This document shows positions 7,099 to 58,346 of a DNA stretch of 64,000 nucleotides, piece by piece. The stretch is from the NCBI RefSeq assembly GCF_028737315.1, contig NZ_JAQZAO010000008.1, positions 62,001 through 126,000 on the forward strand, written 5' to 3'. This DNA comes from Actinomycetospora lemnae (GTDB lineage: Bacteria; Actinomycetota; Actinomycetes; Mycobacteriales; Pseudonocardiaceae). The first letter of the stretch is position 1, and the number at the start of each line of letters is the position of its first letter. Made by a program: the position numbers and the translations under genes. The notes under the pieces are model-generated. The model saw only the letters and a list, made by a program, of their open reading frames with translations, was not told the DNA's origin and searched no databases.

Positions 7099-8733
7099 AT
7101 GTCCCAGGGCGGCCGGGGTGCCGAGGACGCCGAACACACGCGTCGCACCGCACGCGCCGGGGGATCCGAGGACCGCGGCCTGCGGCTGGTGACGCGGGTG
7201 GCGCTCGCGCTCGTCGTCGTCACCCCCAACATCGTCGGCGCGGGCGTCGTGCTCGTCGTCGCGGCCTGGGTGCTCCCGCTCGGCGAGCTGGTCGAGGACG
7301 ACCCGGGCGCGCTGATGCGCAACCTCGTCGCGTTCGGCGCCTACCTGCTCGCCGCCGTCGTCGTCGGCTCGATCTGGGGTCACCTCCGGATGCGCGTGCC
7401 CCGCGCGCCCGGACCGGGGGCCGACGACGCCGCCGTGCGCCGCCACCGCAAGCGTGTGCGCCGCGTGGTGCTGCGCGGGCCGCTGCGGCTCGCGACGGTG
7501 CAGACGGTGCTGTGGATCGCGGCGCTCGTGCTGTTCGTGCTCCTCAACGTCTTCTCGAGCCCGCGGCTGGGGCTCTCGGTGGGCATCACCGTCGGGCTGG
7601 GCGGCGTCGCGACCGTCGCCGTGACCTACCGGCTGGTCGAGCGGGTGCTGCGCCGCGAGGTCGCGCGCGTGCTCAACGACAAGCCGCCGGCGGGCCGCGT
7701 GCTGCCCGGCGTCGCGCTGCGGTCGGTGGGCTCGTGGGCGCTCGGCACCGCGGTACCGCTGGTCGGCGTGCTGCTGGCGGCGGCGGCGTCGCTGGCGTTC
7801 GGCGGCTACACCACCGAGCGGCTGGCGCTGGTGGTGCTCGTGCTGGGCGGGGTCGCGCTCGTCGTCGGCTTCCTCGTCACCGTGCTCACCGCGGCCTCGA
7901 CCGCCGCGCCCGTGCTCGCCGTGCGCCGCGCCCAGCGCCGCGTCGAGGACGGCGACTACGACGCCGAGGTGCCCGTCTTCGACACCACCGAGCTCGGGCT
8001 GCTCCAGGCCGGCTTCAACACCATGGTCTCGGGCCTGCGGGAACGGGAGCGGGTGCGCGACCTGTTCGGCCGCCACGTCGGCGAGGACGTCGCGCGCACG
8101 GCGCTGGAGAACGACGTCGAGCTCGGCGGCGAGGTCCGCGAGGTCGCGGTGCTGTTCGTCGACCTCATCGGGTCGACGCGCCTCGCCGCCTCCCGCCCGC
8201 CGCAGGAGGTCGTCGAGATGCTCAACGCGTTCTTCGCGGTGGTCATCGACGTCGTCGAGCAGCACGACGGCTGGATCAACAAGTTCGAGGGCGACGCGGC
8301 GCTCGCGGTGTTCGGGGCGCCGACCGCGCTCGACGACGCCGCCGGCTGCGCCCTGCGCGCCGGGCGGGAGCTCTCGCGGCGGATCGCCACCGAGCTGGAC
8401 GGGATCGCGGCGGGCATCGGGGTGTCGGCGGGCGAGGCGGTCGCGGGCAACATCGGCGACACCCGCCGCTACGAGTACACGGTGATCGGAGACCCGGTGA
8501 ACGAGGCGGCCCGGCTCACCGAGGCGGCGAAGGAGATCGACGGCTGCGTGGTGGCCTCGGGCGCGGCACTGTCCCGGGCCGGCGACGAGGCCCAGCGCTG
8601 GCGGGTCATCGACGCCCGCGTCCTGCGCGGCCGCGAGGGCGAGACCGACCTCGCCGTGCCGCGCGAGCACGCCGGGGCCTGCGCGGACGAAGGTGGCGAG
8701 CTGCTCGAGCGAACGGGGAGTTCGGGCGCGTAG
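7099..8733 (+). CDS. membrane class III adenylate cyclase with HAMP domain
   Basis: A 544-residue protein with an N-terminal block of about six membrane helices (residues 30-270), a HAMP linker (about 270-325) and a C-terminal class III nucleotide cyclase domain (about 345-510). The cyclase carries both metal-binding regions (LFVDLIGSTRLA and NKFEGDAALAVFG) and the GDPVNEAARL segment with Asn/Arg for transition-state binding, so it should be active in making cAMP. The size and order match mycobacterial Rv1318c-Rv1320c cyclases. Its stop codon lies inside the 47-bp repeat at 8712, so its last residues are encoded by that repeat. Confidence 0.9.
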   Translation: MSQGGRGAEDAEHTRRTARAGGSEDRGLRLVTRVALALVVVTPNIVGAGVVLVVAAWVLPLGELVEDDPGALMRNLVAFGAYLLAAVVVGSIWGHLRMRVPRAPGPGADDAAVRRHRKRVRRVVLRGPLRLATVQTVLWIAALVLFVLLNVFSSPRLGLSVGITVGLGGVATVAVTYRLVERVLRREVARVLNDKPPAGRVLPGVALRSVGSWALGTAVPLVGVLLAAAASLAFGGYTTERLALVVLVLGGVALVVGFLVTVLTAASTAAPVLAVRRAQRRVEDGDYDAEVPVFDTTELGLLQAGFNTMVSGLRERERVRDLFGRHVGEDVARTALENDVELGGEVREVAVLFVDLIGSTRLAASRPPQEVVEMLNAFFAVVIDVVEQHDGWINKFEGDAALAVFGAPTALDDAAGCALRAGRELSRRIATELDGIAAGIGVSAGEAVAGNIGDTRRYEYTVIGDPVNEAARLTEAAKEIDGCVVASGAALSRAGDEAQRWRVIDARVLRGREGETDLAVPREHAGACADEGGELLERTGSSGA

Positions 8734-8758
8734 AAGCAGCGAACAGCACGTTCGCTGC
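8712..8758. repeat. 47-bp hairpin minirepeat, copy A
   Basis: One of four same-orientation copies (others at 24393, 43911 and 58231). The shared core TAGAAGCAGCGA leads into a hairpin: 9-bp stem GCAGCGAAC (8736-8744), 5-base loop AGCAC, and arm GTTCGCTGC (8750-8758). A smaller inverted repeat, CGAAC/GTTCG, precedes it. The repeat spans the cyclase stop codon and fills the gap to the convergent rlmB, where it could end transcription from both sides. Confidence 0.85.
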
Positions 8759-8764
8759 TCCTGG

Positions 8765-9796
8765 TCAGGCGCGCCGGCGCCGCGCCACCTCGGCCAGGGC
8801 CACGCCCGCGGCCACCGAGGCGTTGAGCGACTCCACGTCGCCCGCCATGGGGATGGACACCACGCCCGTGCAGGTCTCGCGCACGAGGCGCGACAGGCCC
8901 TTGCCCTCCGAGCCCACGACCAGCACCAGCGGACCCCGGGCCGCGTCCGGGCCGGCGACGTCGTCGAGGTCGTCGATGTCGGTGCCCGCGTCGCCGTCGA
9001 GGCCCACCGCGACGAGGCCCTCGTCGAGCCAGCTGGTCAGGGTCCGCGACAGGTTCGTCGCGCGCCCGACCGGAATGCGCGCGGCAGCCCCCGCCGAGGT
9101 GCGCCAGGCCACCGGCGTCACGCCGACCGACCGACGCAGCGGCAGCAGCACGCCGTGCGCGCCGAACGCCGCCGCCGAGCGCAGCACCGCGCCGAGGTTG
9201 CGGGGGTCCTGCACGCCGTCGAGCGCCACGAGCAGCGGCTCGACCCGCGCCAGGTGCGCCCGCTGGCGTGCCTCCTCGAGGAGGTCGTCGGGGTGCCGGT
9301 ACTCGAACGCCGGCACCGCGAGCGCGAGCCCCTGGTGCAGGGCGCCGTCGGCCATCCTGTCGACGTCGCCGCGCGGCACCTCGAGCACCGAGACGCCCCG
9401 CTCGGAGGCCATCTTGATCGCCTCGCGGACGCGGTCGTCGACGTCGATGTTCTGCGCGACGTAGAGCGCGGTCGCCGGGCTGTGCGCGCGCAGGCTCTCG
9501 ACCACCGGGTTCCGCCCGAGCACGGTCTGCGGGCCGTCCGGGTCCTCCCGCCGCGACGGGCCCCGGCGCGCGGTCCCGCGCTCGTCACCCGCGGGACGGC
9601 GGGCCCCCGGGCTGCGCGACGTCGACGCCGACGCGCCGTCCGAGCGGTAGGCCTTGTGGTTCGGGCGCTTCTCGGCGGGCGGCGTCGGGCCCTTGCCCTC
9701 GAGGCTGCGGCGGTTCTTGCCGCCGGAACCCTTCGTCGGGCCCTTCTTCGAGCCCGGGTTGCGACGGGCCCCCGGGCGGCGGGAGTTGCCGGCCAT
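8765..9796 (-). CDS. rlmB: 23S rRNA (guanosine-2'-O-)-methyltransferase RlmB (SPOUT/TrmH family)
   Basis: A 343-residue SpoU/TrmH methyltransferase predicted to methylate a guanosine ribose in 23S rRNA. A basic, Gly/Lys-rich N-terminal extension of about 85 residues precedes the substrate-binding domain (NPVVESLRA) and the knotted catalytic domain. That domain carries [32 protein letters not shown] and [20 protein letters not shown]. The ATG at 9796 is four bases after the cysS stop, so the two genes form one unit, as in mycobacteria. The long basic tail is common in actinobacterial members. Confidence 0.92.
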
Positions 9797-9800
9797 GGCG

Positions 9801-11201
<1,401 letters not shown>

Positions 11202-11364
11202 CGCCCGGATCCTACGGAACGCTGGATCCGCCCTGACCGGCCCGTCGGGGGAGCGCTCCTCGCCAACCGATCGATCGTTCGGGAAGCCCCTTCCCAAGGT
11301 GTGAGGACGGACATAGAGTCGCGCCAGTCATTCGACGATTTCGCTACGCGAGGAGTGGTCAGCG

Positions 11365-12489
11365 TTGTCCATCACGTGCCGGACGTCTCTCGTCCGTCAG
11401 GCCCCGGGCAAGTACGAGACGGCGACGGTCGAGGTCGACGACCCGCGTCAGGGCGAGATCCGGGTCAAGATGGTCGCGTCGGGTCTGTGCCACTCCGACG
11501 ACCACATCGCGACCGGTGACATCCCCGTCGGCACCTACCCCTTCGCCGGGGGCCACGAGGGTGGCGGGGTCGTGGAGTCGGTCGGCCCGAACACCCCGGG
11601 CTGGGAGGCCGGCGACAAGGTCGTCTTCTCCTTCCTCCCCGCCTGCGGCAAGTGCCGCTGGTGCGCCACCGGCCACTCGAACCTCTGCGACCTCGGCGCC
11701 GGCCTCCTCGCGGGCACCCGCTGGACCGACCCGTCGACCCGTCTGCACCTCGAGGACGGCAGCAACGTCGGCCAGATGTGCGGCATCTCGACCTTCTCCG
11801 AGTACACGACCGTCGCCGTCGACTCGGCGATCAAGGTCCCGCAGGACACCAAGCTCGAGGTCGCCTGCCTGCTCGGCTGCTCGGTGGGCACCGGCTGGGG
11901 CACCGCCGTCAACACCGGCGACGTGGCCCCCGGCGACACCGTGATCATCCAGGGCATCGGCGGCATCGGCGCCAACGCCGTCCAGGGCGCCGCGCACGCG
12001 GGCGCCGCCAACGTCATCGCCGTCGACCCGGTCGCGTTCAAGCGCGAGAAGGCCCTCGAGCTCGGCGCGACCCACGCGGTCGAGTCGATGGAGGAGGCCA
12101 CGGAGATCGCCAAGGGCTTCACCAACGGCCAGGGCGCCGACGTCGCGCTCGTGACCATCGGCATCACCAAGCCCGAGCACGTCGGCGAGGCGTTCGCCGC
12201 GATCCGCAAGCAGGGCACCGTCGTCGTCACCGGCCTCGGCGACATCACCGAGATCGGCGTGCCGATCCCGATCGGCGAGCTGACCCTGTTCGAGAAGAAG
12301 CTCAAGGGCTCGCTGTTCGGGTCGTCGAACCCGCACGCCGACATCCCGAAGATGCTCGACCTGTACAACCACGGGAAGCTCAAGCTGGACGAGCTCGTCA
12401 CCAAGCAGTACAAGCTCGACGAGGTCGCCCAGGGCTACGAGGACATGCACGCGGGCAAGAACATCCGCGGCGTCCTGATCTTCGACTGA
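11365..12489 (+). CDS. NDMA-dependent (mycofactocin-type) zinc alcohol dehydrogenase
   Basis: A 374-residue medium-chain zinc dehydrogenase oxidising primary alcohols or related substrates. It shows the catalytic zinc region GLCHSDDH, GGHEGGGVVESVG, the structural zinc cysteines CGKCRWCATGHSNLC, a Rossmann segment GIGGIGANAVQGAAHAG, and the family end signature NIRGVLIFD. Close resemblance to the N,N-dimethyl-4-nitrosoaniline-dependent group suggests a tightly bound nicotinamide cofactor and mycofactocin as electron acceptor; that link is family knowledge. The start is TTG at 11365 with GAGGAG 9 bases upstream. The moxR-like gene begins 14 bp after its stop. Confidence 0.9.
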   Translation: MSITCRTSLVRQAPGKYETATVEVDDPRQGEIRVKMVASGLCHSDDHIATGDIPVGTYPFAGGHEGGGVVESVGPNTPGWEAGDKVVFSFLPACGKCRWCATGHSNLCDLGAGLLAGTRWTDPSTRLHLEDGSNVGQMCGISTFSEYTTVAVDSAIKVPQDTKLEVACLLGCSVGTGWGTAVNTGDVAPGDTVIIQGIGGIGANAVQGAAHAGAANVIAVDPVAFKREKALELGATHAVESMEEATEIAKGFTNGQGADVALVTIGITKPEHVGEAFAAIRKQGTVVVTGLGDITEIGVPIPIGELTLFEKKLKGSLFGSSNPHADIPKMLDLYNHGKLKLDELVTKQYKLDEVAQGYEDMHAGKNIRGVLIFD

Positions 12490-12503
12490 GGTACACACAT
12501 CCC

Positions 12504-13529
12504 GTGACGAACGGTTCCGCGGCCCCGGTGTCCACCGAGCCCGAGGGCGCAGCTCCGCTGCGCTCCGTGCACCAGGACACCGGGGCCGCCCCCGGTCTGC
12601 CCACCGCCGGCCCCCTCCCGGTACGCGCGATGATCGACGCGTCCCGCGCCCGCGTCGTCGGGCGCGTGCGCGAGTCGGAGGTCATCGCCGCTGCGCTCGC
12701 CGCCGGGCGCAGCATCCTGCTGGAGGGGCCGCCGGGCACCGGCAAGACGACCCTGCTGCGCGCGCTCGCCGAGGGCGCCGGCGTCGGCCTCGAGCTCGTC
12801 GAGGGCAACGCCGAGCTGTCCCCGGCGCGCCTCGTCGGCCACCACGACCCCTCCCGCGTGCTGACCGAGGACTACCGGCCCGAGAACTTCGTGCCCGGCC
12901 CCCTGGTGCGCGCGCTGACCTCGGGGGCCCTGCTCTACGTCGAGGAGCTCAACCGCGTCCCCGAGGAGACGCTCAACGTGCTGCTCGGCGTGCTCTCCGA
13001 GCGACGCCTGCACGTGCCGCGCCTCGGGGTCGTCGACGCCGCGCCGAGCTTCCGGCTGGTCGCGGCGATGAACCCCTCGGACGCCGTCGGCACCGGGCGC
13101 ATCACCCCGGCGCTCTACGACCGCTCGTGCCGCGTCGGGTTCGCGCACCAGAGCGCCGACGAGGAGACCGCGATCGTGCGCCGGGACCACGGCGTGGTCG
13201 ACGCCGCGTTCGTCGAGCGGGCCGTGCGCGCCACGCGGGCGACGCGCGAGCACCGCGACCTGCGGCTGGGCTCGTCGGTGCGCGGTGCGCTCGACCTCGT
13301 CGCCGTCGCGGCGTCGCTGGCCGAGCTGCGCGACGTGCCGCTCGCGGGCCGGCTCGCCCCGGCCGCCGAGACGACGGGCACCGACGCCGCGCTGGCCGCG
13401 CTGTCCGGGCGCGTGCAGATGCTCGAGGGGTCGACGCGGACGGTCGAGGAGGTCGTCGCCGAGCTGTGGGCGGCGAGCGCCCCGGTCGACGAGCCCGGCG
13501 CCGAGGACGGTGACCCGGGAAAAGCCTGA
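12504..13529 (+). CDS. MoxR-family AAA+ ATPase
   Basis: A 341-residue AAA+ ATPase of the MoxR type, which usually acts as a chaperone on a VWA partner. It has Walker [10 protein letters not shown] (near residue 76), Walker B ALLYVEELNR, sensor-1 AAMNPSD and a C-terminal lid. The first 40 residues are low-complexity and contain an 18-bp minirepeat (12551-12568). The GTG at 12504 is assumed; the ATG at 12629 would remove the variable N-terminus and leave the ATPase domain intact. A VWA gene follows 59 bp downstream, and together they form a classic MoxR/VWA pair. Confidence 0.88.
   Translation: MTNGSAAPVSTEPEGAAPLRSVHQDTGAAPGLPTAGPLPVRAMIDASRARVVGRVRESEVIAAALAAGRSILLEGPPGTGKTTLLRALAEGAGVGLELVEGNAELSPARLVGHHDPSRVLTEDYRPENFVPGPLVRALTSGALLYVEELNRVPEETLNVLLGVLSERRLHVPRLGVVDAAPSFRLVAAMNPSDAVGTGRITPALYDRSCRVGFAHQSADEETAIVRRDHGVVDAAFVERAVRATRATREHRDLRLGSSVRGALDLVAVAASLAELRDVPLAGRLAPAAETTGTDAALAALSGRVQMLEGSTRTVEEVVAELWAASAPVDEPGAEDGDPGKA
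12551..12568. repeat. 18-bp minirepeat inside the moxR-like gene
   Basis: AGCTCCGCTGCGCTCCGT is found here and exactly again at 24817-24834. Its first 14 bases recur at 54326-54339. Each copy is in a variable, non-domain part of a coding region. Confidence 0.7.
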
Positions 13530-13588
13530 GCCCCGACGGGTCGCCGCCCCCGCCGGGGTCGGGACGCTCGCCCGGGGCCCCGCCGCGC

Positions 13589-14518
13589 GTGGTCACCGAC
13601 CCCAAGGAGGTCGAGCAGCTCCTGCGCGACCAGGCCCGGCGCACCGAGACGCGCGCCGACCTGCAGCGACGTCACGACGACCTCGAGCAGGTCACCCCGA
13701 CGGTCGGGGTGCTGGACGAGGCCGCCGTGTCGGGCGCCTACGAGGAGGACCCGGACGCGACCGTCGACCTCCTCGCCGACCTCGCCCGCGCCACCGATCC
13801 CGCCCTGCGCGCGGCGGCCCGGAGGCTCGCGGTGCGCCTGCTCGTGCCGCCGGCGCGCGCGGGCGAGACCGAGCGGCGGGGCTCGAGCCGGCTCGCGACC
13901 GTCGCCGGCGACGGCCTCGACCTGGACCTCGACGCCACCCTCGAGCGCTCCCTCGAGCACCGCCCGATCCGCGCCGAGGACCTCCGCTGGCGCGGCTGGC
14001 GCTCCCCGGGGCGGGCGATCGTGCTGCTCGTCGACGCGTCGGGGTCGGTGGCCGGCAAGCCGCTCACCACCGCCGTGACGACGGCCGGCGCCCTCGCCGC
14101 GGGGCTGCGCACCGACGACGAGCTCGCGGTCGTGGCGTTCTGGTCGCGGGCGGTGCTCCTGCGCCACCTGCACTCCCCCGCGCCGGCGTCGCAGGTGCTC
14201 GACTCGCTGCTCGACCTGCGCGGCGGGTCCACCACCGACCTCGCCCTCGGCCTGCGCACCGCGCTCGCCCAGGCCACGGCGGCCCGGGTGCCGCACGCCG
14301 ACGTCATCGTCCTCACCGACGGGGCGTGGAACGAGGGCGAGGACCCGGCACCCGTCGCCGGCGCGTCAGGGCCCGCGCGCGTGCACACGCTCGTGACGGT
14401 CGACGACGACGAGGCCCGGATCTCCTGCGCGCGCCTCGCCGCGGCCGGGGGCGGGCGGTCGGTGCCGCTGTTCAAGCCTTCCGACGCCCCGGCCGCCGTG
14501 CGGGCGGTGCTGCGGTAG
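13589..14518 (+). CDS. VWA-domain protein paired with MoxR
   Basis: A 309-residue protein whose C-terminal half is a von Willebrand factor A domain with a complete metal-binding MIDAS site: LLVDASGSVAG (near residue 150), the threonine in GGSTTDLALGL, and TDGAWNEGE. The N-terminal half is helical and charged (about residues 5-100) and unassigned. No signal peptide or membrane segment is visible, so it is probably cytoplasmic. In this family the VWA protein binds the MoxR ATPase and a target complex, often a metalloenzyme. The adjacent alcohol dehydrogenase is a possible client by position only. Confidence 0.85.
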   Translation: MVTDPKEVEQLLRDQARRTETRADLQRRHDDLEQVTPTVGVLDEAAVSGAYEEDPDATVDLLADLARATDPALRAAARRLAVRLLVPPARAGETERRGSSRLATVAGDGLDLDLDATLERSLEHRPIRAEDLRWRGWRSPGRAIVLLVDASGSVAGKPLTTAVTTAGALAAGLRTDDELAVVAFWSRAVLLRHLHSPAPASQVLDSLLDLRGGSTTDLALGLRTALAQATAARVPHADVIVLTDGAWNEGEDPAPVAGASGPARVHTLVTVDDDEARISCARLAAAGGGRSVPLFKPSDAPAAVRAVLR

Positions 14519-14552
14519 AGCCTGCTGCTCGCCGCGGGGCGGACTCTTCGTG

Positions 14553-14581
14553 GTGGATGCTTCGGCTTTCGAAGCATCCAC
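14553..14581. terminator. bidirectional stem-loop terminator
   Basis: Perfect 12-bp stem GTGGATGCTTCG / CGAAGCATCCAC with a 5-base loop, between the convergent VWA and EspG genes. No U-tract follows, as is usual in high-GC actinomycetes. Confidence 0.75.
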
Positions 14582-14654
14582 GGTGGGGCCACCTCCCGAC
14601 CCGACCCACCGCCGCAGATCACCCGACACTTCGGGCGCCGCGACGGCCGACGCC

Positions 14655-15476
14655 CTACGCGGAGCCGCGACGCCGCGCGACATCCGTGGCGTGGCCGTCG
14701 AGCAGGGCCGCGAGCTCGTGGCGCAGGCGCGACCGGTCGATCGGGTGGACGAGGACCCGGCGCCCCGTGCCGTCGAGGCCCCACGCGACGCGCCCGACCT
14801 CGGTGTCGAGCACGGTGACGGTGCGCGGGCCGCGCCGCGGCACGCCGTCGGCGTCGCGAGCGGTCACCCCGAAGGTCATCGCGCGGTCCGGGGTGCGCGC
14901 CCACATCGCCCGCAGGCGCTCGACGTGGTGCGCGGACGCGCCGGCGCGCCGGACCCGGCGGCAGCGGTCGCCGAGGGTCAGGCCCCGGCCGAACAGGGCG
15001 TCGGCGGGCAGCGACATCGGCACCCCGGGCGCGGCGCGCACGTCGGGGAGGCGGGCGAGGAGGGCACCGGCGAGGTCGTGGGGGTCGACGGTCTCGAGGA
15101 GCAGGCCCTCGGTGTCGAGACGGGCGACGACGCCGAGCGTCCCGCGGGCGGCCGCGAGCGTCGGCTGGGGCGCGCGCCTGTCGGCGAGCACGACGACGTC
15201 GAGCTCGCAGGCCGGGCGCGCGAGGACCCCGAGGGCGTCGGCCAGGCCCGGGTCGGGCGCACCGCGGTCGTCGAGCAGCCCCTGCGCGGCGAGGCCTCGC
15301 CAAGCCGCGGCGTCGAGGGCGTCGCGCTCGGCGTAGGTGCGGCCGTGGTCGAGGACGTGCAGGGCGGCCGGGCGCGCGTCGAACCCGAGGTGGCGCCAGA
15401 GCGCGACGTACTGACCCACGTCGAGCCGGGCGCCCGCGAACCGCGAGCCCAGCGTCATCGGCAGGACGCCCCTCAC
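14655..15476 (-). CDS. EspG-family ESX secretion chaperone
   Basis: A 273-residue protein resembling EspG, the cytosolic chaperone that holds PE/PPE substrates for type VII (ESX) secretion. Family-like features are the N-terminal segment LDVGQYVALWRHLGFDARPAAL, the central strand-rich core, and the helical C-terminal stretch TLGDRCRRVRRAGASAHHVERL. No membrane segment is seen. It overlaps the upstream PPE gene by four bases (GTGA), which strongly suggests chaperone-substrate pairing. An in-frame ATG at 15458 is an alternative start. No ESX core gene (eccB-E, mycP, esxAB) is in the window. Confidence 0.78.
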   Translation of the reverse strand: MRGVLPMTLGSRFAGARLDVGQYVALWRHLGFDARPAALHVLDHGRTYAERDALDAAAWRGLAAQGLLDDRGAPDPGLADALGVLARPACELDVVVLADRRAPQPTLAAARGTLGVVARLDTEGLLLETVDPHDLAGALLARLPDVRAAPGVPMSLPADALFGRGLTLGDRCRRVRRAGASAHHVERLRAMWARTPDRAMTFGVTARDADGVPRRGPRTVTVLDTEVGRVAWGLDGTGRRVLVHPIDRSRLRHELAALLDGHATDVARRRGSA

Positions 15477-17152
15477 TCGCCGATCACCGGAGGCGTGGTG
15501 GCGGGGAGCGCGCCGGCGATGGCGTCCGGGTCGTCCTCGGAGAGGTAGTCGGGCCGGCGTCGCTGACCGTCGCCGCCCTGCCCACCGACGACGCCCGCCG
15601 GCGGGATCATCGGCACCGCGCCGCCGCGACCTTCGGCCGCGGCCGCCCCGGCCGTACGGGCGACGGCGGCCTCCGCGGCTGCCCCGCCACCGGCGCCGAC
15701 CCGCGCGCCCGGTCCCGGCTCGCCGCCCCCGGCGCCGCCGCCCACCCCGCCGGCTCCACCACCCGAGCCGCCGAGACCTCCCCCGAGCCCACCGCCGGGG
15801 CCACCGCCCAGACCTCCCCCGGGACCACGGCCGGACCCCCCGCCCGCTCCACCGCCCAGGCTGCCGGCGCCGCGGCCGCCGGGCGCCTCGCCGGCGCCGA
15901 CCGCCGTACCCGGTCGCGGACCGCCGACCCCGCCCGAGCCCCCGACCCCGCCCGACCCCGCAGCTCCGCCCGACCCCGGCACGCCGGCGCCCGGCGCGCC
16001 GCTCGTCCCCGGGAGACCGTTCGCACCCGGGACCACGCCCGATCCACCGGGGCGCCCGGCGCCCGTCTCGCCCGGCGTCCCCGGCAGACCCGGCACGCGA
16101 CCGGCGCCCGTCGACCCCGGCGCGCCCGGCCCGCGCCCGGCACCCGTCGGCCCCGGGACGGCGCCCGGCGTCGCCCCGGGCCGTGCCCCCGGCGGCACGC
16201 GTCCCGCGCCCCCGGCACCACCGCCCGGCACGGCACCCCCGGGCGGCACCACGCCACCCCCGGCCCCTGCGCCACCCGTTCCCGCGCCGCCGGGACCAGC
16301 ACCGCCGGGACCAGCACCGCCGGGACCAGCACCGCCCGGCACGCCGGCCGAGCCGGCGCCGCCGGTCGCGGGGCTCCCCGGCGCGCTCGGGCTGCCGGGC
16401 ACGCCGGTCGTCGTCGCGCCGGGAGGCACGCCCCCGGCCCCCGCACCCGCCCCACCACCGGCCCCGCCGGCCCCGACGGGAACGCCGAACACGCCCTCCG
16501 CGCTGGCCGCGACCGGCGGCGCGGGCGGCAGCCCGGCCGGCGTCACACCGGTGCCCTGCGGTCCTGCGAACTGGGGCAGCGTCGCCATCGAGCCGCCGCT
16601 CGCGCCCTGGTACTCCTCCATCGCCTGTTGGGCCCGGCGCTCGGCGATCTGCTGCTGGGCGATCTGCGCGAGCGCGTCGGCGCCCCCGAGGGGCACCGAG
16701 AGCGGGGAGGCGATCCCGACGTCGGGCACCGTGCCGAACAGGGTCGAGCCCTCGAGGTAGCCGTCGACCCCGGCCTCCCAGGCCGACCCGAACTCGGGGC
16801 GTTCCTTGCCCGCCAGGACCTCGCGCTGGGCGACCTCGAGGTGCGCCCCCTGCTGGTCACCGATGCCCCGCACCGCCGTGGCGAGTCCCCGCGCCTGGTC
16901 GACCCACGGCCGCAGCGGCTCCACGCGCTCCTGCGCGGACGACGCCGAGTCCCCCGTCCACGCGACGCCGAGCGTGGTGTTGGCGCGGCCGACGGCGTCG
17001 GTGACCGCGACCATCCGGTCGGCCAGCTCGTGCCAGCGCGCGCCCGCGTCGTGGAAACCGGGTGAGCCGGGGCCCGTGCTCAGGGCGTCCCAGATCGCCT
17101 GGTGCGGCACGCCGTACCAGTTGGTCTGGAACGGTGGGTCGGACTGGGCCAC
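15473..17152 (-). CDS. PPE-domain (WXG-type) protein with Gly/Pro-rich tail
   Basis: A 559-residue putative ESX substrate. Residues 1-190 form a helical PPE/WXG-like domain with the turn AWTGDSASSAQ near residue 66. Residues about 210-530 are collagen-like and dominated by Gly, Pro and Ala (runs of GPGGA, GAGG and GGG), ending in a short acidic segment. The tail is probably extended or disordered outside the cell. The GTG start has a strong GGAGGTGA. The low-complexity DNA includes an exact 3 x 15-bp tandem repeat at 16291-16335. Co-translation with the EspG gene supports secretion. Confidence 0.75.
   Translation of the reverse strand: MAQSDPPFQTNWYGVPHQAIWDALSTGPGSPGFHDAGARWHELADRMVAVTDAVGRANTTLGVAWTGDSASSAQERVEPLRPWVDQARGLATAVRGIGDQQGAHLEVAQREVLAGKERPEFGSAWEAGVDGYLEGSTLFGTVPDVGIASPLSVPLGGADALAQIAQQQIAERRAQQAMEEYQGASGGSMATLPQFAGPQGTGVTPAGLPPAPPVAASAEGVFGVPVGAGGAGGGAGAGAGGVPPGATTTGVPGSPSAPGSPATGGAGSAGVPGGAGPGGAGPGGAGPGGAGTGGAGAGGGVVPPGGAVPGGGAGGAGRVPPGARPGATPGAVPGPTGAGRGPGAPGSTGAGRVPGLPGTPGETGAGRPGGSGVVPGANGLPGTSGAPGAGVPGSGGAAGSGGVGGSGGVGGPRPGTAVGAGEAPGGRGAGSLGGGAGGGSGRGPGGGLGGGPGGGLGGGLGGSGGGAGGVGGGAGGGEPGPGARVGAGGGAAAEAAVARTAGAAAAEGRGGAVPMIPPAGVVGGQGGDGQRRRPDYLSEDDPDAIAGALPATTPPVIGE
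16291..16335. repeat. three exact 15-bp tandem repeats
   Basis: The unit CGGGACCAGCACCGC occurs three times head to tail inside the PPE-protein gene and encodes GPGGA steps of the collagen-like tail. Slippage could vary the tail length between strains. Confidence 0.9.
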
Positions 17153-17215
17153 CGGTCACCTCCTCGCGGCGATCGTAGGAAGACGCCGCGCGGCGTGGGT
17201 GCCGTTCCGCAGAAC

Positions 17216-17680
17216 TCAGGCAGGCCGCAGCATCGCCGTCGCGACGGCCGCGAGACCCTCGCCGCGCCCGGTGAGCCCCAGCCCGTCGGACGTCGTCCCC
17301 GAGACGGCGACCGGACCGCCGAGCGCCGCGGACAGCGCCGCCTGCGCCTCATCGCGGCGCGTGCCGATCTTCGGGGCGTTGCCGATCACCTGGACCGCGG
17401 CGTTGCCCAGCACCCAGCCCTCCGCGCCGACCAGCGCGCGGACCTCCTCCAGCAGCCGCACCCCGGACGCGCCGGCCCACTCCGGGCGGCCCGTGCCGAA
17501 CACCGCACCGAGGTCCCCGAGCCCGGCGGCCGAGAGCACCGCGTCGCACAGCGCGTGCGCGGCGACGTCGCCGTCGGAGTGCCCCGCGCAGCCGTCGACG
17601 CCCTCCCAGTACAGCCCGGCCACCCAGCACGGCACGCCGGGACTCACCGGGTGCACGTCGGTGCCGATGCCGACCCTCAC
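17216..17680 (-). CDS. ispF: 2-C-methyl-D-erythritol 2,4-cyclodiphosphate synthase
   Basis: A 154-residue IspF, the MEP-pathway enzyme that cyclises CDP-methylerythritol phosphate with loss of CMP. The sequence has the metal-binding GTDVHPV at the start, [19 protein letters not shown], and the CDP-binding end motif [20 protein letters not shown]. Length is standard. It starts on a GTGA shared with the ispD stop, as in the conserved actinobacterial carD-ispD-ispF operon. Confidence 0.95.
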
Positions 17681-18381
17681 GAGGGCGAACCCGTCGCGAC
17701 CGTGCCCACCAACGCCTCCGCCATCGCGAGGTCCAGCGGCGTCGTCACCTTGAACGCCCGCGGGTCGCCGGGCACCGTGACGACGCCCACCCCGAGGTCC
17801 TCGGCGAGGCCGGCGTCGTCGGTGGCGACGACCGGCCCGCCCGCCGCGCGCTGCTCGCCCGCGCGGGCGTGGGCGGCGCGCAGCGTCGCCCGGTCGAAGC
17901 CCTGGGGCGTCTGGACGGCGGCGAGCCCGGTGCGGTCGACGAGGCCGGTGACGACGCCCGCCCGGTCGGTGCGTCGCAGGGTGTCGGCGACGGCGGTGAC
18001 CGGTACCACCGCGCGGTGCCCGGCGCGCACGGCGTCGACGACGGCGCGCACCACCTCGGGCGGGCACAGGCACCGGGCGGCGTCGTGCACGAGCACCACG
18101 TCGGCGTCGACGGGCAGGGCCTCGAGACCCGCGGCCACGGAACCGACGCGGTCGTCGGCGCCGGGCACCACGACGGCTCGCCGCGACCCGAGCGCCGCGC
18201 GCATCGCGTCCTCGTCGCCGGGCGGGGCGACGACGACGACCGTCTGCACCCCGCCCTCGACGAGCCCGTCGACCGCGCGCGCCACCAACGTCAGACCACC
18301 CACGACCGCGAGCGCCTTCGGCCGGCCGAGACCGAGCCGTTCACCGCGTCCCGCCGCCGGCACGATCGCCGCGACGGTCAC
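17677..18381 (-). CDS. ispD: 2-C-methyl-D-erythritol 4-phosphate cytidylyltransferase
   Basis: A 234-residue nucleotidyltransferase of the MEP isoprenoid pathway, transferring CMP to methylerythritol phosphate. The N-terminal CTP-binding loop is [17 protein letters not shown]. Further family elements are [24 protein letters not shown] and the C-terminal [19 protein letters not shown]. It lies 19 bp after carD and overlaps ispF by four bases, so the three genes are one transcript. Confidence 0.95.
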
Positions 18382-18400
18382 CGCCCCGGGACGCCCGTCG

Positions 18401-18883
18401 TCAGGAGGCCAGGACCTGGTCGAGCAGCGACTCGGCGGCCACCTCGTCGGTGCCCTCCGCCAGCGCCAGCTCGCTGACCAGGATCTGGCGTGCCTTCGCC
18501 AGCATCCGCTTCTCGCCCGCGGACAGGCCGCGGTCCTTCTCGCGGCGCCACAGGTCGCGCACGACCTCGGCGACCTTGTTCACGTCACCCGACGCGAGCT
18601 TCTCGAGGTTCGCCTTGTACCGGCGCGACCAGTTGGTCGGCTCCTCGGTGTGCGGCGCACGCAGCACCTCGAACACCCGGTCCAGACCCTCCTGGCCCAC
18701 GACGTCGCGGACACCGACGATCTCGGCGTTGTCCGCGGGGACCCGGACGGTCAGGTCGCCCTGGGCAACCTTGAGGACGAGGTACTTCTTCTCCTCGCCC
18801 TTGATCGTCCTGGTCTCGATGGCCTCGATGAGTGCGGCACCGTGGTGCGGGTAGACGACGGTCTCGCCGACCTTGAAAACCAT
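18401..18883 (-). CDS. carD: CarD/CdnL RNA polymerase-binding regulator
   Basis: A 160-residue global transcription regulator that binds the RNA polymerase beta subunit and stabilises open complexes, notably at rRNA promoters. The N-terminal Tudor-like RNAP-interacting domain ([20 protein letters not shown]) and the helical C-terminal DNA-binding domain with the conserved Trp ([13 protein letters not shown]) are intact. The ATG start is preceded by AAAGGGG. It is divergent from the lpqE-like gene, as in mycobacteria. Confidence 0.95.
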
Positions 18884-19101
18884 GTGTCCCGAGCCCCTTT
18901 CGCTGCATCCAGATTAACACGTCCGACGCACGGGCATTGCAGGGGATTGCGCCGTCTTCGCAGGTCAGGGACTTGACAACTCGGCGGGGGCCGTGCATGT
19001 CCAGGTCACGGCCCGCGCCCGGACGGCCGGGGCGCGGCGCGGGTACTAGGGTGTCGCTCGCCGTCTGGAGACCGCCCCCACCCGAGAGGACACCCGGACC
19101 C

Positions 19102-19644
19102 ATGAGCCGCCGCCCGCGCGGGCCCCGACCCGGGCTCGTCGTCGCGACCCTGCTCACCGCGGCGCTGGCGCTCGCCGGGTGCAGCGCCGGGGCCGTCACC
19201 CAGACCGACACGATCGTCTCCCAGGCCGCCGGTGCGCGCGGCCAGGTGGGGGACATCGTGCTCCAGGACGTCTCCCTCGACGCCGGCCCGGCCGAGTCCG
19301 TGCCGGCGGGCGGCGAGATCTTCGTCCGCGGCACGATCATCAACCAGGGTCCGACGGCTGACCGCCTGGTGTCGGTGTCGACGCCGTACGCGGTCGGCGC
19401 CCGCCCCGAGGGCCAGCTCGCGATCCCCGCCGAGAACGCCGTCCGGATGGTCGGTGCCGAGCCGGTCCCGGTCGGCCCCGGCAGCATCGACGCCCGCGTG
19501 GCCGGCGCGATGCGGGTGGCGCTCACGGGCGTGACCCAGCAGCTGCGCCCGGGCCCGACCTACGCGGTCACCTTCACCTTCGAGCGCGCCGGGGCCGTCA
19601 CCGTGCCGACGATCGTCGTCGGCGTCGGCCCGTCCGTGGGCTGA
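19102..19644 (+). CDS. LpqE-like lipoprotein
   Basis: A 180-residue predicted lipoprotein: positively charged start, hydrophobic core LVVATLLTAALALAGC with a lipobox ending in Cys, then a beta-rich domain (QVGDIVLQDVSLDAG, GEIFVRGTIINQGPTADRLVSVSTP). This domain resembles the PCu(A)C-like fold seen in mycobacterial LpqE, although no copper ligand set is clear. The ATG at 19102 is preceded by GAGAGGA. Position between carD and radA is the same as lpqE (Rv3584). Role unknown; it may be a metal or envelope accessory protein. Confidence 0.8.
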   Translation: MSRRPRGPRPGLVVATLLTAALALAGCSAGAVTQTDTIVSQAAGARGQVGDIVLQDVSLDAGPAESVPAGGEIFVRGTIINQGPTADRLVSVSTPYAVGARPEGQLAIPAENAVRMVGAEPVPVGPGSIDARVAGAMRVALTGVTQQLRPGPTYAVTFTFERAGAVTVPTIVVGVGPSVG

Positions 19645-19693
19645 CACCCGCGCGCCGTCCGGCGCTGTCGGGGCCCCGTCCTACGGTGCGCTC

Positions 19694-21109
19694 GTGACGT
19701 CACGCGCCCGCGCCGCCCGCTTCGAGTGCACCGCCTGCGGCCACACCGCCGCCAAGTGGGTCGGCCGCTGCCCGGACTGCGGGGGCTGGGGCACGGTCGA
19801 GGAAGCCCCCGACACGTCCCCCGCGGCGGGGCGCAGCGGACGCCCCGGCGTCGCGCCGACGCCCGCGGCGCGTCCGGCCAGCCCGGTCCGCCAGATCGGC
19901 CAGGTCGATCTCGAGACCGCCACGGCCCGGCCGACGGGGGTCGGCGAGCTCGACCGCGTGCTCGGCGGAGGCCTGGTGCCCGGCGTGGTGGTGCTGCTCG
20001 CGGGCGAGCCGGGGGTGGGCAAGTCCACGCTGCTGCTCGAGGTCGCGGCCCGACGGGCGCGTGACGGGGCCACGGTGCTGTACGTCACGGGCGAGGAGTC
20101 GGCGGGTCAGGTGCGCCTGCGCGCCGAGCGGACCGACGGTCTCGCGCCGCACCTGTTCCTCTCCGCCACCGGCGACCTCGAGGAGATCGCGGCGCACGTC
20201 GAGGCCGTCGACCCCGAGCTGCTGGTGGTCGACTCGGTGCAGACGGTCGGCACCGCGACGGCGGAGGGCTCGCCCGGCGGCGTGTCCCAGGTGCGCACGG
20301 TCACGACGGCGCTCGTCGCCCTCGCCAAGCAGCGCGACCTGCCCGTGGTGCTCATCGGCCACGTCACCAAGGACGGCGCGGTGGCCGGGCCGCGCACGCT
20401 CGAGCACCTCGTGGACGTCGTGCTCTCCTTCGAGGGCGACCGGCACTCCCCGTTGCGGCTGGTCCGCGGCCTGAAGAACCGCTTCGGCGCCACCGACGAG
20501 GTCGGCTGCTTCGAGATGAACGACCGCGGGATCGCCGAGGTCGCCGATCCGTCCGGGCTGTTCACCGGCGGGCTCGAGCGCACGGTGGCCGGGCAGGCGG
20601 TGACCGTGGCGATGGAGGGCCGCCGCCCGCTCATGGCCGAGGTGCAGGCGCTCGTCGCCACCCGGCCGTCGGACACCCCGCCGCGCCGCGTGGTGTCCGA
20701 CCTCGACAGCGGCCGCGTCGCCAAGATCCTCGCGGTGCTCCAGGAGCGCTGCAAGCTGCGCCTGCACGACAAGGACGTCTTCGTCGCCACGGTCGGCGGC
20801 ATGAAGCTGCGCGAGCCGTCGGCCGACCTCGCGGTCGCCATCGCGATCGCCTCGGCCTACCACGGCGAGGCGGTGCGCTCCGGGCTCGTCGCCATCGGCG
20901 AGGTCGGGCTGGGCGGCGAGGTCCGCCGGGTGGTCGCCCTCGAACGTCGCCTCGCCGAGGCCGGCCGGCTCGGCATCAGCCGCGCGATCGTGCCGCCGGG
21001 CGAGGTCCGCACGCCGAAGGGCCTGACGGCGGCGCCGGTCGACGACCTCCGCGGCGCCCTGATGCGCACCACCCTCGAGAAGGACCCGGACCTCAGCCTG
21101 CGAGGGTGA
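19694..21109 (+). CDS. radA: DNA repair protein RadA (Sms)
   Basis: A 471-residue RecA-like helicase acting in branch migration during recombinational repair. In order it has a C4 zinc finger (CTACGHTAAKWVGRCPDCGGWG), Walker A GEPGVGKST near residue 108, the RadA-specific KNRFG motif (LKNRFGATDE), and a Lon-like C-terminal domain (VGGMKLREPSADLAVAIAIAS). The GTG at 19694 gives the expected N-terminus. In most actinobacteria disA follows at once; here the 3' end instead overlaps a convergent membrane-protein gene by 17 bp. Confidence 0.95.
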   Translation: MTSRARAARFECTACGHTAAKWVGRCPDCGGWGTVEEAPDTSPAAGRSGRPGVAPTPAARPASPVRQIGQVDLETATARPTGVGELDRVLGGGLVPGVVVLLAGEPGVGKSTLLLEVAARRARDGATVLYVTGEESAGQVRLRAERTDGLAPHLFLSATGDLEEIAAHVEAVDPELLVVDSVQTVGTATAEGSPGGVSQVRTVTTALVALAKQRDLPVVLIGHVTKDGAVAGPRTLEHLVDVVLSFEGDRHSPLRLVRGLKNRFGATDEVGCFEMNDRGIAEVADPSGLFTGGLERTVAGQAVTVAMEGRRPLMAEVQALVATRPSDTPPRRVVSDLDSGRVAKILAVLQERCKLRLHDKDVFVATVGGMKLREPSADLAVAIAIASAYHGEAVRSGLVAIGEVGLGGEVRRVVALERRLAEAGRLGISRAIVPPGEVRTPKGLTAAPVDDLRGALMRTTLEKDPDLSLRG

Positions 21110-22061: not shown

Positions 22062-22172
22062 GTCACGGAAAGTAGGTTCGCGATCGCGCTGGGCGATCCT
22101 CCACCACGCGGTCGCCGGTCCGTTTCACCCGACGGTGGCGACGGCGGGGGGCCGGGGCAGGATCGGCGGTCG

Positions 22173-23165: not shown

Positions 23166-23170
23166 CGGCC

Positions 23171-23491
23171 ATGGCCGTCGTGAAGATCAACGCCATCCAC
23201 GTCCCCGAGGGCAGCGGCCCCGAGCTCGAGAAGCGCTTCGCCGCGCACGGCGACAGCATGCTCGACACCCCGGGCTTCCTGGGCTACGAGCTGCTGCGCC
23301 CCATCGAGGGTGAGCACCGCTACTTCGTCTACACGCGCTGGGAGTCCGACGAGGCGTTCGAGGCGTGGCGCGGTGGCGGTGCCGCCGAGGCCGCGCACGC
23401 CGGGCAGCGCCAGCAGCCCGTCGCGACGGGTGCGGATCTGCTGCAGTTCGAGGTCGCGCTGTCCGTCGGCAAGGGCGGCGGCGAGTCCTGA
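23171..23491 (+). CDS. mhuD: MhuD-type heme-degrading monooxygenase
   Basis: A 106-residue ferredoxin-like (ABM) fold protein very close to mycobacterial MhuD, which cleaves heme to mycobilin and releases iron. The start MAVVKINAIHVPEG keeps the heme-site Asn7; RWESDEAFEAW holds the ruffling Trp and AAHAGQRQQPVATG the proximal His. Such proteins act as dimers in the cytoplasm. It begins 5 bp after mutY, and the same mutY-mhuD proximity exists in mycobacteria. Confidence 0.92.
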   Translation: MAVVKINAIHVPEGSGPELEKRFAAHGDSMLDTPGFLGYELLRPIEGEHRYFVYTRWESDEAFEAWRGGGAAEAAHAGQRQQPVATGADLLQFEVALSVGKGGGES

Positions 23492-24390: not shown

Positions 24391-24392
24391 TC

Positions 24393-43868: not shown

Positions 43869-43910
43869 CCGGCCCGTCGGGCCCGCCGACGGGTCGCCTC
43901 TCCGGTGATC

Positions 43911-43957
43911 AACGGGCGCTTCGTGCGCCTAGAAGCAGCGAGCAGCGCGTTCGCTGC
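43911..43957. repeat. 47-bp hairpin minirepeat, copy C
   Basis: Core TAGAAGCAGCGA with hairpin GCAGCGAGC (43935-43943), loop AGCGC, GTTCGCTGC (43949-43957); one pair is a G-T wobble. It lies 25 bp downstream of the DUF6779-like gene stop and upstream of prsW, where it may act as terminator. GGTGATCAACGGG is shared with copy B. Confidence 0.88.
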
Positions 43958-43982: not shown

Positions 43983-44909
43983 TCAGGGGTCGCGGCGGCG
44001 GCGGCCCACCGTGCCGCCCGAGGCGGCGTGGGCGGCGAGGAGCTCGGCCACCGTGCGGCCGCCGGACGGGGCGTCGGTCGGCGCGCGGCGGGGGCGGCGG
44101 TCCTCGGGCCCGTCGGACGGCTCGGGGGGCTCCGGGAGGGTCTCGTAGCCGGCCGCGCGCACGTAGTTGTCGACGAACGACCCGGCGGCGAGCACGGCGG
44201 GGTCCGACGGCGGGCCGTCGCTCGGCGGCGGCGCCGGGCGCAGGGGCCGGGCCGTGTGCTCGGTGGGCGGTTCGACGCGGCGACCCGCGACCGACCCCGG
44301 CGTGCGCGGCGCGGGCGCGGAGGGCAGGGCCGGCCGTCGGGGCGCGGGCGGCGGGCCCGGCGGCCCGGACGGCACGCGCGGCTGCGGGCCCGAGTCGCCG
44401 ACGACCCGCAGGCGCGGGCCCCGGGGCCGCGGCGGGGCGGCGGGCACGGCCGGCACGCCGACCGACTGCAGGGTCACCGCGTCGGCCTCGCGGCGCGTGC
44501 GGTCGAGCTCGTCGCGCAGGGACGCCACCTCCTCGCGGGCCCGCTCCGCGGTCTGCTCGGCCTCCTCGCGGGCCGCGACCTCGCGCGCCACCCGCCGGTC
44601 GAGGTCGCGGTGCAGCGCGGCGACCCGCTCCTCGGCCTCCTCCTCGGCCGCGGCGCGCCCCTCCTCGGCCTCGCGGGCCTCCTCGGCGATCTCGGCGAGC
44701 TCCGCGTCGCTGCGCCCCCGGCGGGCGAGGACGAGCACCACGAGCACCACGGCCCAGAGCGCCGCCACGACGGCCAGGCGCAGCCAGCGGGCGTCGTCGG
44801 CGAGCACCACGGCCGCGCCGGCGGCCACGGCGAGGACGCCCGCGCCGCTCAGCAGCGCGGCGCGTCGGCCGTCGGGGCCGGCGCGTCCGACCCCGTCCGG
44901 GGTGCTCAT
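43983..44909 (-). CDS. membrane coiled-coil protein (DUF6779-like, Rv3604c position)
   Basis: A 308-residue protein with two short membrane segments (LLSGAGVLAVAAGAAVVLA and LRLAVVAALWAVVLVVLVLA, residues about 20-60). A long charged coiled coil follows (about 65-160, repeats of EAREAEEGRAAAEEEAEER), then a Pro-rich stretch and a C-terminal conserved motif (GSFVDNYVRAAGYETLPEPPE). The ATG at 44909 is clear. It corresponds in position and make-up to mycobacterial Rv3604c. The function is unknown; a scaffold near the division or envelope machinery is only a guess. Confidence 0.72.
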   Translation of the reverse strand: MSTPDGVGRAGPDGRRAALLSGAGVLAVAAGAAVVLADDARWLRLAVVAALWAVVLVVLVLARRGRSDAELAEIAEEAREAEEGRAAAEEEAEERVAALHRDLDRRVAREVAAREEAEQTAERAREEVASLRDELDRTRREADAVTLQSVGVPAVPAAPPRPRGPRLRVVGDSGPQPRVPSGPPGPPPAPRRPALPSAPAPRTPGSVAGRRVEPPTEHTARPLRPAPPPSDGPPSDPAVLAAGSFVDNYVRAAGYETLPEPPEPSDGPEDRRPRRAPTDAPSGGRTVAELLAAHAASGGTVGRRRRDP

Positions 44910-56663: not shown

Positions 56664-56736
56664 GTGGCGGACGGTAGCGGGCCCTCAGGGACCGGGGACG
56701 GGCGGGGTCGTGTCGACTGAGTGATCGTTCAGCGAG

Positions 56737-57300
56737 TCACGCGTAGACGTGCGGGTCGAGCGTCCCGATGTAGGGCAGGTCCCGGTAGCGCTCCGCGTAG
56801 TCGAGCCCGAAGCCGACGACGAACTCGTTCGGGATGTCGAACCCGACGTAGGCGACGTCGACGTCGAGCTTCGCGGCCTCGGGCTTGCGCAGGAGCGTGA
56901 CGACGTCCAGCGACGCCGGGCCACGGGACTCGAGGTTCTTGCGCAGCCAGGACAGCGTGAGCCCCGAGTCGATGATGTCCTCGACGATGAGGACCCGGCG
57001 CCCCGAGATGTCGCGGTCGAGGTCCTTGAGGATGCGCACCACGCCCGACGACGAGGTCGACGAGCCGTACGAGCTGACGGCCATGAACTCGAGCTGCGTC
57101 GGCATCGGCAGGCGGCGGGCGAGGTCGGTCATGAACATCACCGCGCCTTTGAGGACGGTGACGAGCACGAGGTCCTGGTCACGCTCGCCGTAGTCGGCGC
57201 CGATCTGCTCGGCCAGCTCGCCGATCTTGTCCTGGATCTGCTCCTCGGTGATCAGTACGGACGCGATGTCGCCGTCGTACACCGTTGTCGGGCTCCTCAC
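56737..57300 (-). CDS. hpt: hypoxanthine phosphoribosyltransferase
   Basis: A 187-residue purine salvage enzyme making IMP/GMP from hypoxanthine/guanine and PRPP. The PRPP motif is [35 protein letters not shown], the flexible loop [27 protein letters not shown] and [29 protein letters not shown] are all present and match mycobacterial Hpt closely. The GTG at 57300 is preferred because it forms a GTGA overlap with the tilS stop; GTG 57282 is an alternative. Confidence 0.95.
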
Positions 57301-58346
57301 CGGATCGGGGGCGGCCCGTCGGGGCGGGCCGGAGCTCGCACGCCGTGGTGGGACGCCTCGAGCACTCGCAGCCTGCCATGCGCCCGCACCACCTCCAACC
57401 CGCCCGCGAGCGGCGGCACACCCTGACCACGCCAGCGGGCGACGACGGCGTCGACGGCCCGCACGTGGGCGTCGGTGAGCTCCCGCGCACCCGCCGCGAC
57501 CAGCCACGACCGCAGCACCCGCCGCCGCACCGCGGGCACCTCGCCGGCGAGGCCGACCGCGTCGAGGGCGCCGTCGGGGTCGACGAGCCGGATCAGGCGC
57601 TCGTGCGCCAGCGCGGTGAGCGCGGCGTCGTCGTCGGCGAGCTGTGCGGCCGTCCGGGCCAGCGCCGGCGCCACCCCGCCGGCGAGCACGTCCTCGAGCA
57701 GCGGCAGGACCTCGTGGCGCAGCCGGGCGCGGGTGTAGCGCGGGTCGGCGTTGTGGGGGTCGTCCCAGACCGGGAGCCCCGCGGCGGCGCAGGCCGCGCG
57801 CGTCGTCGCCCGCCGGACGCCGAGCAGCGGGCGGCACCACGGCGGGTCCCACGCCGCCATCCCCGCGAGCGAGCGCGCCCCGGAGCCCCGGCCCAGCCCG
57901 AGCAGCACGGTCTCGGCCTGGTCGTCGAGCGTGTGGCCGAGCAGCACCGGCGCGTCGCCGTGCGCCCGCGACGCCGCCCGCAGCGCCGCGTACCGGGCGT
58001 CGCGCGCCGCGGCCTCCGGTCCGCCCGCGGTGCCCACCTCCACGGCGACGACCTCCGCGTCCGCGCCCAGCTCCCGCAGCAGCGCGGCCGTCGCCGCGGC
58101 TTGCTCGGCGGAGCCGTCCTGCAGGCCGTGGTCGACGACGACGCCGTGGACCGCGGGTGCCACGTGCACGGCCGCGGCGGCCAGCGCGAGCGAGTCGGCG
58201 CCGCCCGAGCAGGCGAGGACCACGGGAGCGAACGCGTCGTTCGTGCGCCTAGAAGCAGCGAACCGCCCGTTCGCTGCAGCAGGCAGGCCGGTCAGGGCCT
58301 CGCGCACCGCCCGGCGGAGCTCGGCGACGGGGTCGGGCACGCGCAC
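57297..58346 (-). CDS. tilS: tRNA(Ile)-lysidine synthase with repeat-encoded insert
   Basis: A 349-residue essential enzyme that adds lysine to C34 of tRNA-Ile(CAU). The PP-loop is [20 protein letters not shown] (SGGADS at residues 47-52), followed by [32 protein letters not shown] and the later [10 protein letters not shown]. Residues about 24-39 ([16 protein letters not shown]) are encoded by the 47-bp hairpin repeat, which sits in frame just upstream of the PP-loop; family members normally have only a short linker there. The gene overlaps hpt by four bases. Confidence 0.92.
58231..58277. repeat. 47-bp hairpin minirepeat, copy D, inside tilS
   Basis: Core TAGAAGCAGCGA with hairpin GCAGCGAAC (58255-58263), loop CGCCC, GTTCGCTGC (58269-58277). 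A second hairpin, CGAACG CGT CGTTCG, precedes it (58230-58244). It lies in the 5' coding part of tilS without breaking the frame. Confidence 0.88.

Follow-up and report, generated by a model that had tools for sequence, protein, structure and literature searches.

To our knowledge, the spread of short palindromes in bacterial genomes has been tied to one class of enzyme, the RAYT proteins. In the system that they form with repetitive extragenic palindromic (REP) sequences, the palindromes are extragenic and of high copy number, the cognate gene is framed by inverted repeats, and composite arrays are regularly spaced (PMC2817692). The repeats are hairpins of 20–40 bp with a GTAG or CGTC tag, according to a survey in which none of six actinobacterial terms looked for occurs (PMC3733652). 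Here we describe a 53-bp imperfect dyad that occurs four times in a 64,000-nucleotide stretch of the genome of Actinomycetospora lemnae (contig NZ_JAQZAO010000008.1, positions 62,001 to 126,000; the window), together with a gene for an AbiEi-like protein that carries a predicted EDxHD/Vsr-type nuclease domain. The gene and the repeat are linked. We consider it probable, at roughly 0.6, that the dyad is the dispersed partner of this gene, in a system resembling REP/RAYT and built from unrelated machinery.

The likeness lies in a high-copy, mostly extragenic element (at least 107 copies in the source genome; 75 of 82 intergenic) and in a linked gene framed by two repeat copies at 13 of 14 loci. 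The differences lie in the repeat, which is a 53-bp double-palindrome dyad, and in the protein, which is AbiEi-like with a predicted EDxHD/Vsr nuclease and no tyrosine transposase. The system would work like REP/RAYT and is not a member of it. It also differs from the AbiEi antitoxins of the type IV toxin–antitoxin system AbiE, by the additional C-terminal predicted nuclease domain and by about 100 genomic sites, mostly at gene ends. No AbiEii toxin partner was recognized by eye at the 14 loci, where no profile search for AbiEii was made. In contrast to EDxHD homing endonucleases such as I-Bth0305I, and to Vsr, the gene is free-standing and framed by dispersed palindromes, with no intron or intein noticed around it.

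The dyad and the gene it frames

The first-pass annotation of the window described four copies of a 47-bp hairpin repeat, aligned without gaps and on the same strand. All four are present, and their full extents, with the linked gene found elsewhere in the genome, are as follows.

8706–8758, + strand: element copy A, type 1, 53 bp (motif, alignment and covariance model)
24387–24439, + strand: element copy B, type 2, beginning with GTGATCAACGGGG (motif and gene calls)
43905–43957, + strand: element copy C, type 2; the minus-strand gene 43983–44909 ends about 25 bp away
58225–58277, + strand: element copy D, type 1, inside the tilS open reading frame
Contig C26, 169514–170467: element-linked gene, between two outward-facing direct pairs of the element

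The shared motif TAGAAGCAGCGA and the stem GCAGCGA(A/G)C-N5-GTTCGCTGC occur in every copy, and the alignment of genome copies shows the two proposed subfamilies to be real. The 47 bp stand as a core; the true unit is 53 bp long, a dyad centred on TAGA in which (G/C/A)TAGA stands before the second hairpin (hairpin B). In the source genome (6.06 Mb, coded G000; other G codes denote other genomes and L codes examined loci), the consensus is GnnGCGAACGGGGAGTTCGnGCGCGTAGAAGCAGCGAACAGCGCGTTCGCTGC, and the second subfamily begins with GTGATCAACGGGG. The exact pattern has 37 copies there, 18 on the plus and 19 on the minus strand, against none for the reversed pattern, well above what chance would give, and allowing up to three mismatches gives 104 matches, palindromic double counts included. 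From examined stretches 81 distinct copies were compiled, 77 of which were aligned (alignment A1) and reveal the 53-bp extent. A covariance model, R1, recovers at least 107 copies at E ≤ 1e-3 from 150 scored candidates.

Across species the arms approximate GGAGCGAACG...CGTTCGCTCC, each arm being itself a short palindrome, with TAGA in the centre. Among 28 hand-picked copies from several genomes (alignment A2), pairing along the full-length dyad (column i with 54-i) gives 15 of 23 pairs altered on both sides and a covariation of 0.255 versus 0.140 when shuffled, while a model of two separate hairpins gives 4 of 17 and 0.159 versus 0.115. These figures suggest that it is the 53-bp dyad that is conserved, as would fit its recognition in double-stranded form. 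The earlier suggestion that the stem stays paired while the loop changes did not survive: none of five stem pairs of hairpin B is altered on both sides in the 77 copies of the source genome, so structural selection on it there is unsupported, and the contrast of loop and stem reflects conservation of primary sequence. A LexA box of the SOS response was also considered and was dropped, the spacing being GAAC-N5-GTTC here and N4 in that box.

The linked protein, of 318 amino acids, is predicted to consist of an AbiEi-like region (about residues 4–196), with the fold of a winged helix-turn-helix and a C-terminal domain, followed by an EDxHD/Vsr-type nuclease domain (about residues 201–306). In the latter E204, D237 and H255 are conserved, and the predicted domain is apparently intact. 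A search of the PDB by sequence returned nothing below E 0.35, and NCBIfam gave no match. Fourteen genomes of the genus hold an orthologue (47–100% identity); 13 of these orthologues have elements to their left and right, and the fourteenth is flanked on a single side. These 14 loci are a single syntenic locus: what are presumably a MetE-like gene (14 of 14) and a DUF59-like gene (12) adjoin it, and neither is found at 16 other homologue loci, which are all those examined beyond the 14 and a subset of the two to seven homologue matches per Actinomycetospora genome. None of the 16 has copies of the 53-bp family. At the syntenic locus of G012 (L280) a more diverged gene, of 50% identity, is framed by palindromes of the GAACGGCGCTCTCGCTGC type, a picture resembling the joint exchange of a gene and its palindromes.

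These 16 paralogue loci are instead framed by palindromes of their own. For each locus the 280-bp left and right flanks were compared and the best 50-bp stretch was scored, with genes on contig C29 as controls. Similarity of at least 34/50 was found at 13 of 14 orthogroup loci, 16 of 16 paralogue loci and 6 of 10 loci from other genera, or 35 of 40 in all, versus 4 of 119 controls (maximum 36). At 40/50 or more, 32 of the 40 loci are retained and none of the 119 control genes. The framing palindromes differ in sequence between paralogue groups. The strength of the palindromes, taken by itself, separates loci from controls less well: both flanks have at least 17 of 22 pairs at 13 of 40 loci versus 0 of 120 controls, and one flank has at least 18 pairs at 23 of 40 versus 15 of 120.

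The ten loci from other genera were drawn from 29 rows after exclusion of L308, a near-duplicate of L307, and of partial or weak matches. In G052, G094/G062 and G126 (where the left copy is partial), the best homologue lies among different neighbours and is framed by the genome's own variant of the element. Framing is seen as well in G096, where the gene is in two frames, and in G030, where it is in two pieces, neither being the best-scoring homologue of its genome; in G118 the homologue is framed by weak profile matches with a flank similarity of 44/50. Homologues at L313, L310, L314, L312, L325, L316 and L326 have no copy of the 53-bp family or a fragment only, L310 being flanked left and right by palindromes of its own.

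A further unit of this kind, resembling an insertion sequence, occupies positions 27777–28984 of the window and consists of an AbiEi-like gene between inverted palindromes of a different family.

27777–27826, + strand: second palindrome family, left copy, 50/50 identical to the right copy
27907–28938, + strand: paralogue of the element-linked gene, 343 amino acids, framed by the second palindrome family
28935–28984, − strand: second palindrome family, right inverted copy, overlapping the end of gene 27907–28938

The paralogue is 38% identical to the element-linked protein and has a PADLOC match to AbiEi (1.3e-6) that covers part of it, with no Pfam match. Seven solo copies of the second family lie elsewhere on the window's contig, and in G003 and G004 the homologues found in the equivalent region have framing copies that are 49/50 and 44/50 alike. 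The link between gene and repeat is thus repeated, with an independent family, in the same genome.

In three sister pairs, copies are fewer in the genome where the gene was not found. A tree of the tilS region contains the sister pairs G001+G003, G016+G007 and G013+G008 (supports 1.00, 0.98 and 0.97), in which the orthogroup gene was not found in G003, G007 and G008. Copies by R1 number 90 in the gene-bearing genome versus 16 in its sister for the first pair, 60 versus 16 for the second and 39 versus 5 for the third. Where both sisters have the gene, the counts are 107 and 127 (G000/G015), 124 and 77 (G004/G011, the latter 84% complete) and 34 and 19 (G010/G006, the former 59% complete). Broken fragments of the linked gene remain at the syntenic locus in G007 (L302, C22:55000–60000), adjoining one decayed element; in G003 and G008 the best homologues lie away from this locus, whose sequence itself was not examined there.

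Several caveats apply to the reading of the dyad as the partner of this gene. The gene-loss test consists of three contrasts only, and R1 is biased to copies like those of G000. G009 has the gene yet only 17 copies by R1, and G014, an incomplete metagenome-assembled genome, has 50 copies and no orthogroup match. Inheritance alone could explain the framing at the 14 orthogroup loci. The similarity of flanks across paralogues and the framing in other genera are, however, hard to explain in this way.

Turnover of sites among relatives

Searches of the whole genome and of relatives, which the first-pass annotation had proposed, find further copies well beyond the window. Exact copies occur in 8 of 18 genomes of the genus, and R1 finds copies in all 18, ranging from 5 to 127. 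Clade variants exist, such as GGAACGAACG...CGTTCGTTCC in most examined copies of G005, G013 and G002. In a sample of 120 Pseudonocardiaceae genomes 23 match, including 18 outside the genus (ten with a single match and eight with 2–40), and most of the examined copies outside the genus retain the layout of palindrome, TAGA-like centre and palindrome. An exact pattern has no matches in viral contigs.

Orthologous sites differ in occupancy, and the comparison with relatives goes against ordinary conservation of gene ends. The gene that holds site D, which we take to be tilS, as named in the first-pass annotation, is the following.

57297–58346, − strand: tilS-like open reading frame with a CSGGADS motif; copy D lies in its N-terminal part, and the frame stays open through the element

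Among 17 aligned genomes, the insert at site D has the same orientation in G000, G015, G001, G004 and G012 and the opposite orientation in G011; G016 has a degenerate double hairpin, G003 a partial remnant, and the remaining nine no visible insert. In every one of the 17 the tilS frame reads through the site. Rickettsia palindromic elements are palindromic repeats inserted in frame within coding genes. The tilS insert is like them, while the system here differs in its mainly intergenic copies and in having an identified linked gene. At site A the element is found in G015, in G001 and, in diverged form, in G007; the profile detects none in G003. Site B holds the element in G015, G001 and G004 and a decayed form of it in G007, and G003, the sister of G001, has an empty site. 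At site C the element occurs in G015 and is missing from G001, G003 and G004. Such differences between species, with copies kept, missing, decayed or inverted at a given site, indicate that the element is dispersed.

On contig C29, 11 of 13 elements could be tested in G015 from the flanks on either side. G015 shares ten of them and lacks one, and it carries one that is missing from G000. Flank identities at these elements are 80–97%, mostly 90 or more. Eight of the shared sites were compared, the other two having no simple gap-free counterpart. Differences occupy 10 of 224 cells in the arms and TAGA (columns chosen by hand) and 30 of 200 in the remainder of the element, which indicates conserved arms and fast-changing loops and spacers. 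A scan of the same contig for TAGA-centred double palindromes found six sites, all of the 53-bp family.

Gene ends, orientation and spacing

The gene context reported for the window is confirmed: A and B are each flanked by convergent genes, C lies between two minus-strand genes, close to a gene end, and D is in the 5′ coding part of tilS. Some copies also provide the stop codon, TAG or TGA, for the gene that lies on their opposite side; A and B are examples.

7099–8733, + strand: gene whose stop codon TAG (8731–8733) is supplied by copy A
23563–24390, + strand: gene terminated by the TGA of copy B; opposite is the stop of the minus-strand gene 24446–25594

Genes around 82 copies in G000 and 126 in relatives, remaining after removal of identical contexts, were called with a home-made codon-usage finder. 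Of the 75 intergenic copies in G000, 68 have the TAGA-GCTGC end (that of hairpin B) facing a converging stop, at a median of 15.5 nucleotides and with 35 of the 68 at 5–20. In relatives, where 111 copies have a right-hand gene called, 100 do so, at a median of 14.5 and with 59 of the 100 at 5–20. In gaps between co-directional genes 55 of 70 copies have that orientation, including 25 of 31 in G000 (binomial p=1.7e-6, with orthologues included, so that not all are independent). For all four window copies the gene whose stop faces this end is on the minus strand, and their shared plus strand follows because the orientation of the element follows the strand of the facing gene. The reading of the shared strand as a mark of replication direction is not needed, exact copies being evenly divided between strands genome-wide.

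These placements are what would be expected if the element were mainly a terminator cassette, spread because hosts use it to end genes, with the nuclease link secondary. The order from the facing gene is then stop, hairpin and TTCTA, and the co-directional bias fits as well. A scan of positions 8000–25500, which include only copies A and B, for a hairpin with a T-rich tract (at least five T in eight) calls neither, however, and TTCTA is not a classical T tract. Copies also lie within coding genes (7 of 82 in G000, 13 of 126 in relatives), including 5′ tilS in both orientations, and the palindromes specific to each paralogue and the lower copy numbers where the gene was not found are left unexplained. 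We therefore regard this account as unlikely. At gathering scores, Rfam gave one tRNA only in the window.

Pairs of elements are spaced in steps. Inverted pairs were sought genus-wide with a pattern of match lengths 46–106 and recognized by the matched letters; a backward-pattern control outnumbered the pair pattern in all 18 genomes (7+6 vs 4+4 in G000). After exclusion of four chance loci (a stretch shared by G001 and G003, one in G007 and a tRNA in G013), 22 head-to-head pairs are 75 (two), 85 (15), 86 (three) or 95 (two) long, and the spacers make at least three of them look like orthologues shared by G000 and G015. In examined DNA, inverted pairs are spaced 62, 72–73 or 82 in 13 of 15 cases. 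Direct pairs are spaced 74–75 or 83–85 in 12 of 14, several being orthologous and several at 83–85 bp representing one orthologous locus, the linked gene's own flanks, and so not independent. No tail-to-tail pairs within 300 bp were found in examined DNA, and by eye most of the pair spacers have unrelated sequences. The step of about 10 bp suggests that the spacing may be set or selected by proteins bound to one face of the DNA helix.

Two arrangements of identical copies were also observed. In L128 (G000 C2:1–2500) two lie 124 bp apart in a short tandem array at a contig end, and in L305 (G126 C3:42000–48000) each unit of a tandem duplication of about 1.5 kb opens with an identical copy of the element.

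A proposed cycle and its competitors

The roles in binding, cutting, mobilization or maintenance, and termination that we infer would combine as follows. The AbiEi-like nuclease would bind the long dyad as a dimer and nick or cut DNA at or beside it. Repair would then copy, convert or re-insert the dyad, leading to spread, turnover in place and similarity within species, and without the protein dyads would be lost. Survivors would lie mainly just behind stops, where a hairpin and then UUCUA after the gene would do least harm or help to end transcripts. Such binding and cutting by a dimer would account for the framing, the paralogue-specific repeats, the turnover of loops, the similarity within species, the quantized distances and the loss of copies after loss of the gene. 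A role in termination is compatible with it and may explain which insertions survive.

The copies could instead be operators of an AbiEi-like regulator, whether a regulon or a multiplied type IV toxin–antitoxin operator. The AbiEi-like fold would be in keeping with this, AbiEi operators being long dyads, and an element lies 104–247 bp upstream of the matched gene start at 13 of 14 orthogroup loci. Yet 68 of 75 intergenic copies in G000 face a stop on the hairpin B side, the linked gene has a downstream copy at 13 of 14 loci, its neighbours are the MetE-like and DUF59-like genes, and a predicted nuclease domain with conserved E, D and H is fused to the AbiEi-like region; we find the operator account highly improbable. 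Slightly less probable again is an origin as solo ends of an unrelated DDE insertion sequence or as miniature inverted-repeat transposable elements derived from one. Terminal inverted repeats and presence or absence between species would agree with it, but the gene repeatedly framed by palindromes is the AbiEi-like one, and no clear target-site duplication was seen at four polymorphic sites; DDE genes with such ends were not searched for systematically. A classical REP/RAYT system, its RAYT overlooked or since lost, has the same layout, with palindromes framing a gene, many solo copies and TAG beside a hairpin, and is scarcely credible: the Y1 transposase family PF01797 was found in none of the 18 genomes of the genus while 5 of 14 control genomes are positive, and a RAYT as partner is rejected on that basis. 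Of the earlier proposal of a mobile terminator-like repeat, REP-type element or protein-binding site, the broad sense stands, the element being dispersed, at gene 3′ ends and linked to an AbiEi-like protein; a REP in the strict sense, with RAYT/Y1, does not.

If the dyad is indeed partnered with the AbiEi-nuclease gene, the relation may extend further. We see an even chance that the Pseudonocardiaceae harbour a class of resident selfish or domesticated nucleases, AbiEi fused to EDxHD, each maintaining and spreading its own family of dyads of about 50 bp. The dyads would be both cut-and-copy sites and gene-end punctuation, in an analogue of REP/RAYT of independent origin, built around a homing-type nuclease. 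What is seen here is a protein unrelated to the RAYTs, its predicted nuclease domain apparently intact, standing in the same relation to its repeats, with several gene–repeat families per genome. A search of open-access literature, covering titles and abstract openings with subscription papers and ISfinder outside its scope, found nothing linking AbiEi or DUF559 proteins to dispersed palindromes. The natural gene-loss contrasts make palindrome maintenance in GC-rich actinomycetes directly testable, and a candidate function is offered for proteins now named ‘hypothetical’ or ‘AbiEi antitoxin’.

More double-palindrome families, of the GCGAGGGCGTCCCTCGC type and of the GCGAAGGGCACCTTCG...TAGA type, lie near gene ends and resemble those that frame other paralogues. 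They were seen near elements in L012, L019, L022 and L037, in the flanks of L299 and L301, and at site A of G015, G001, G003 and G007.

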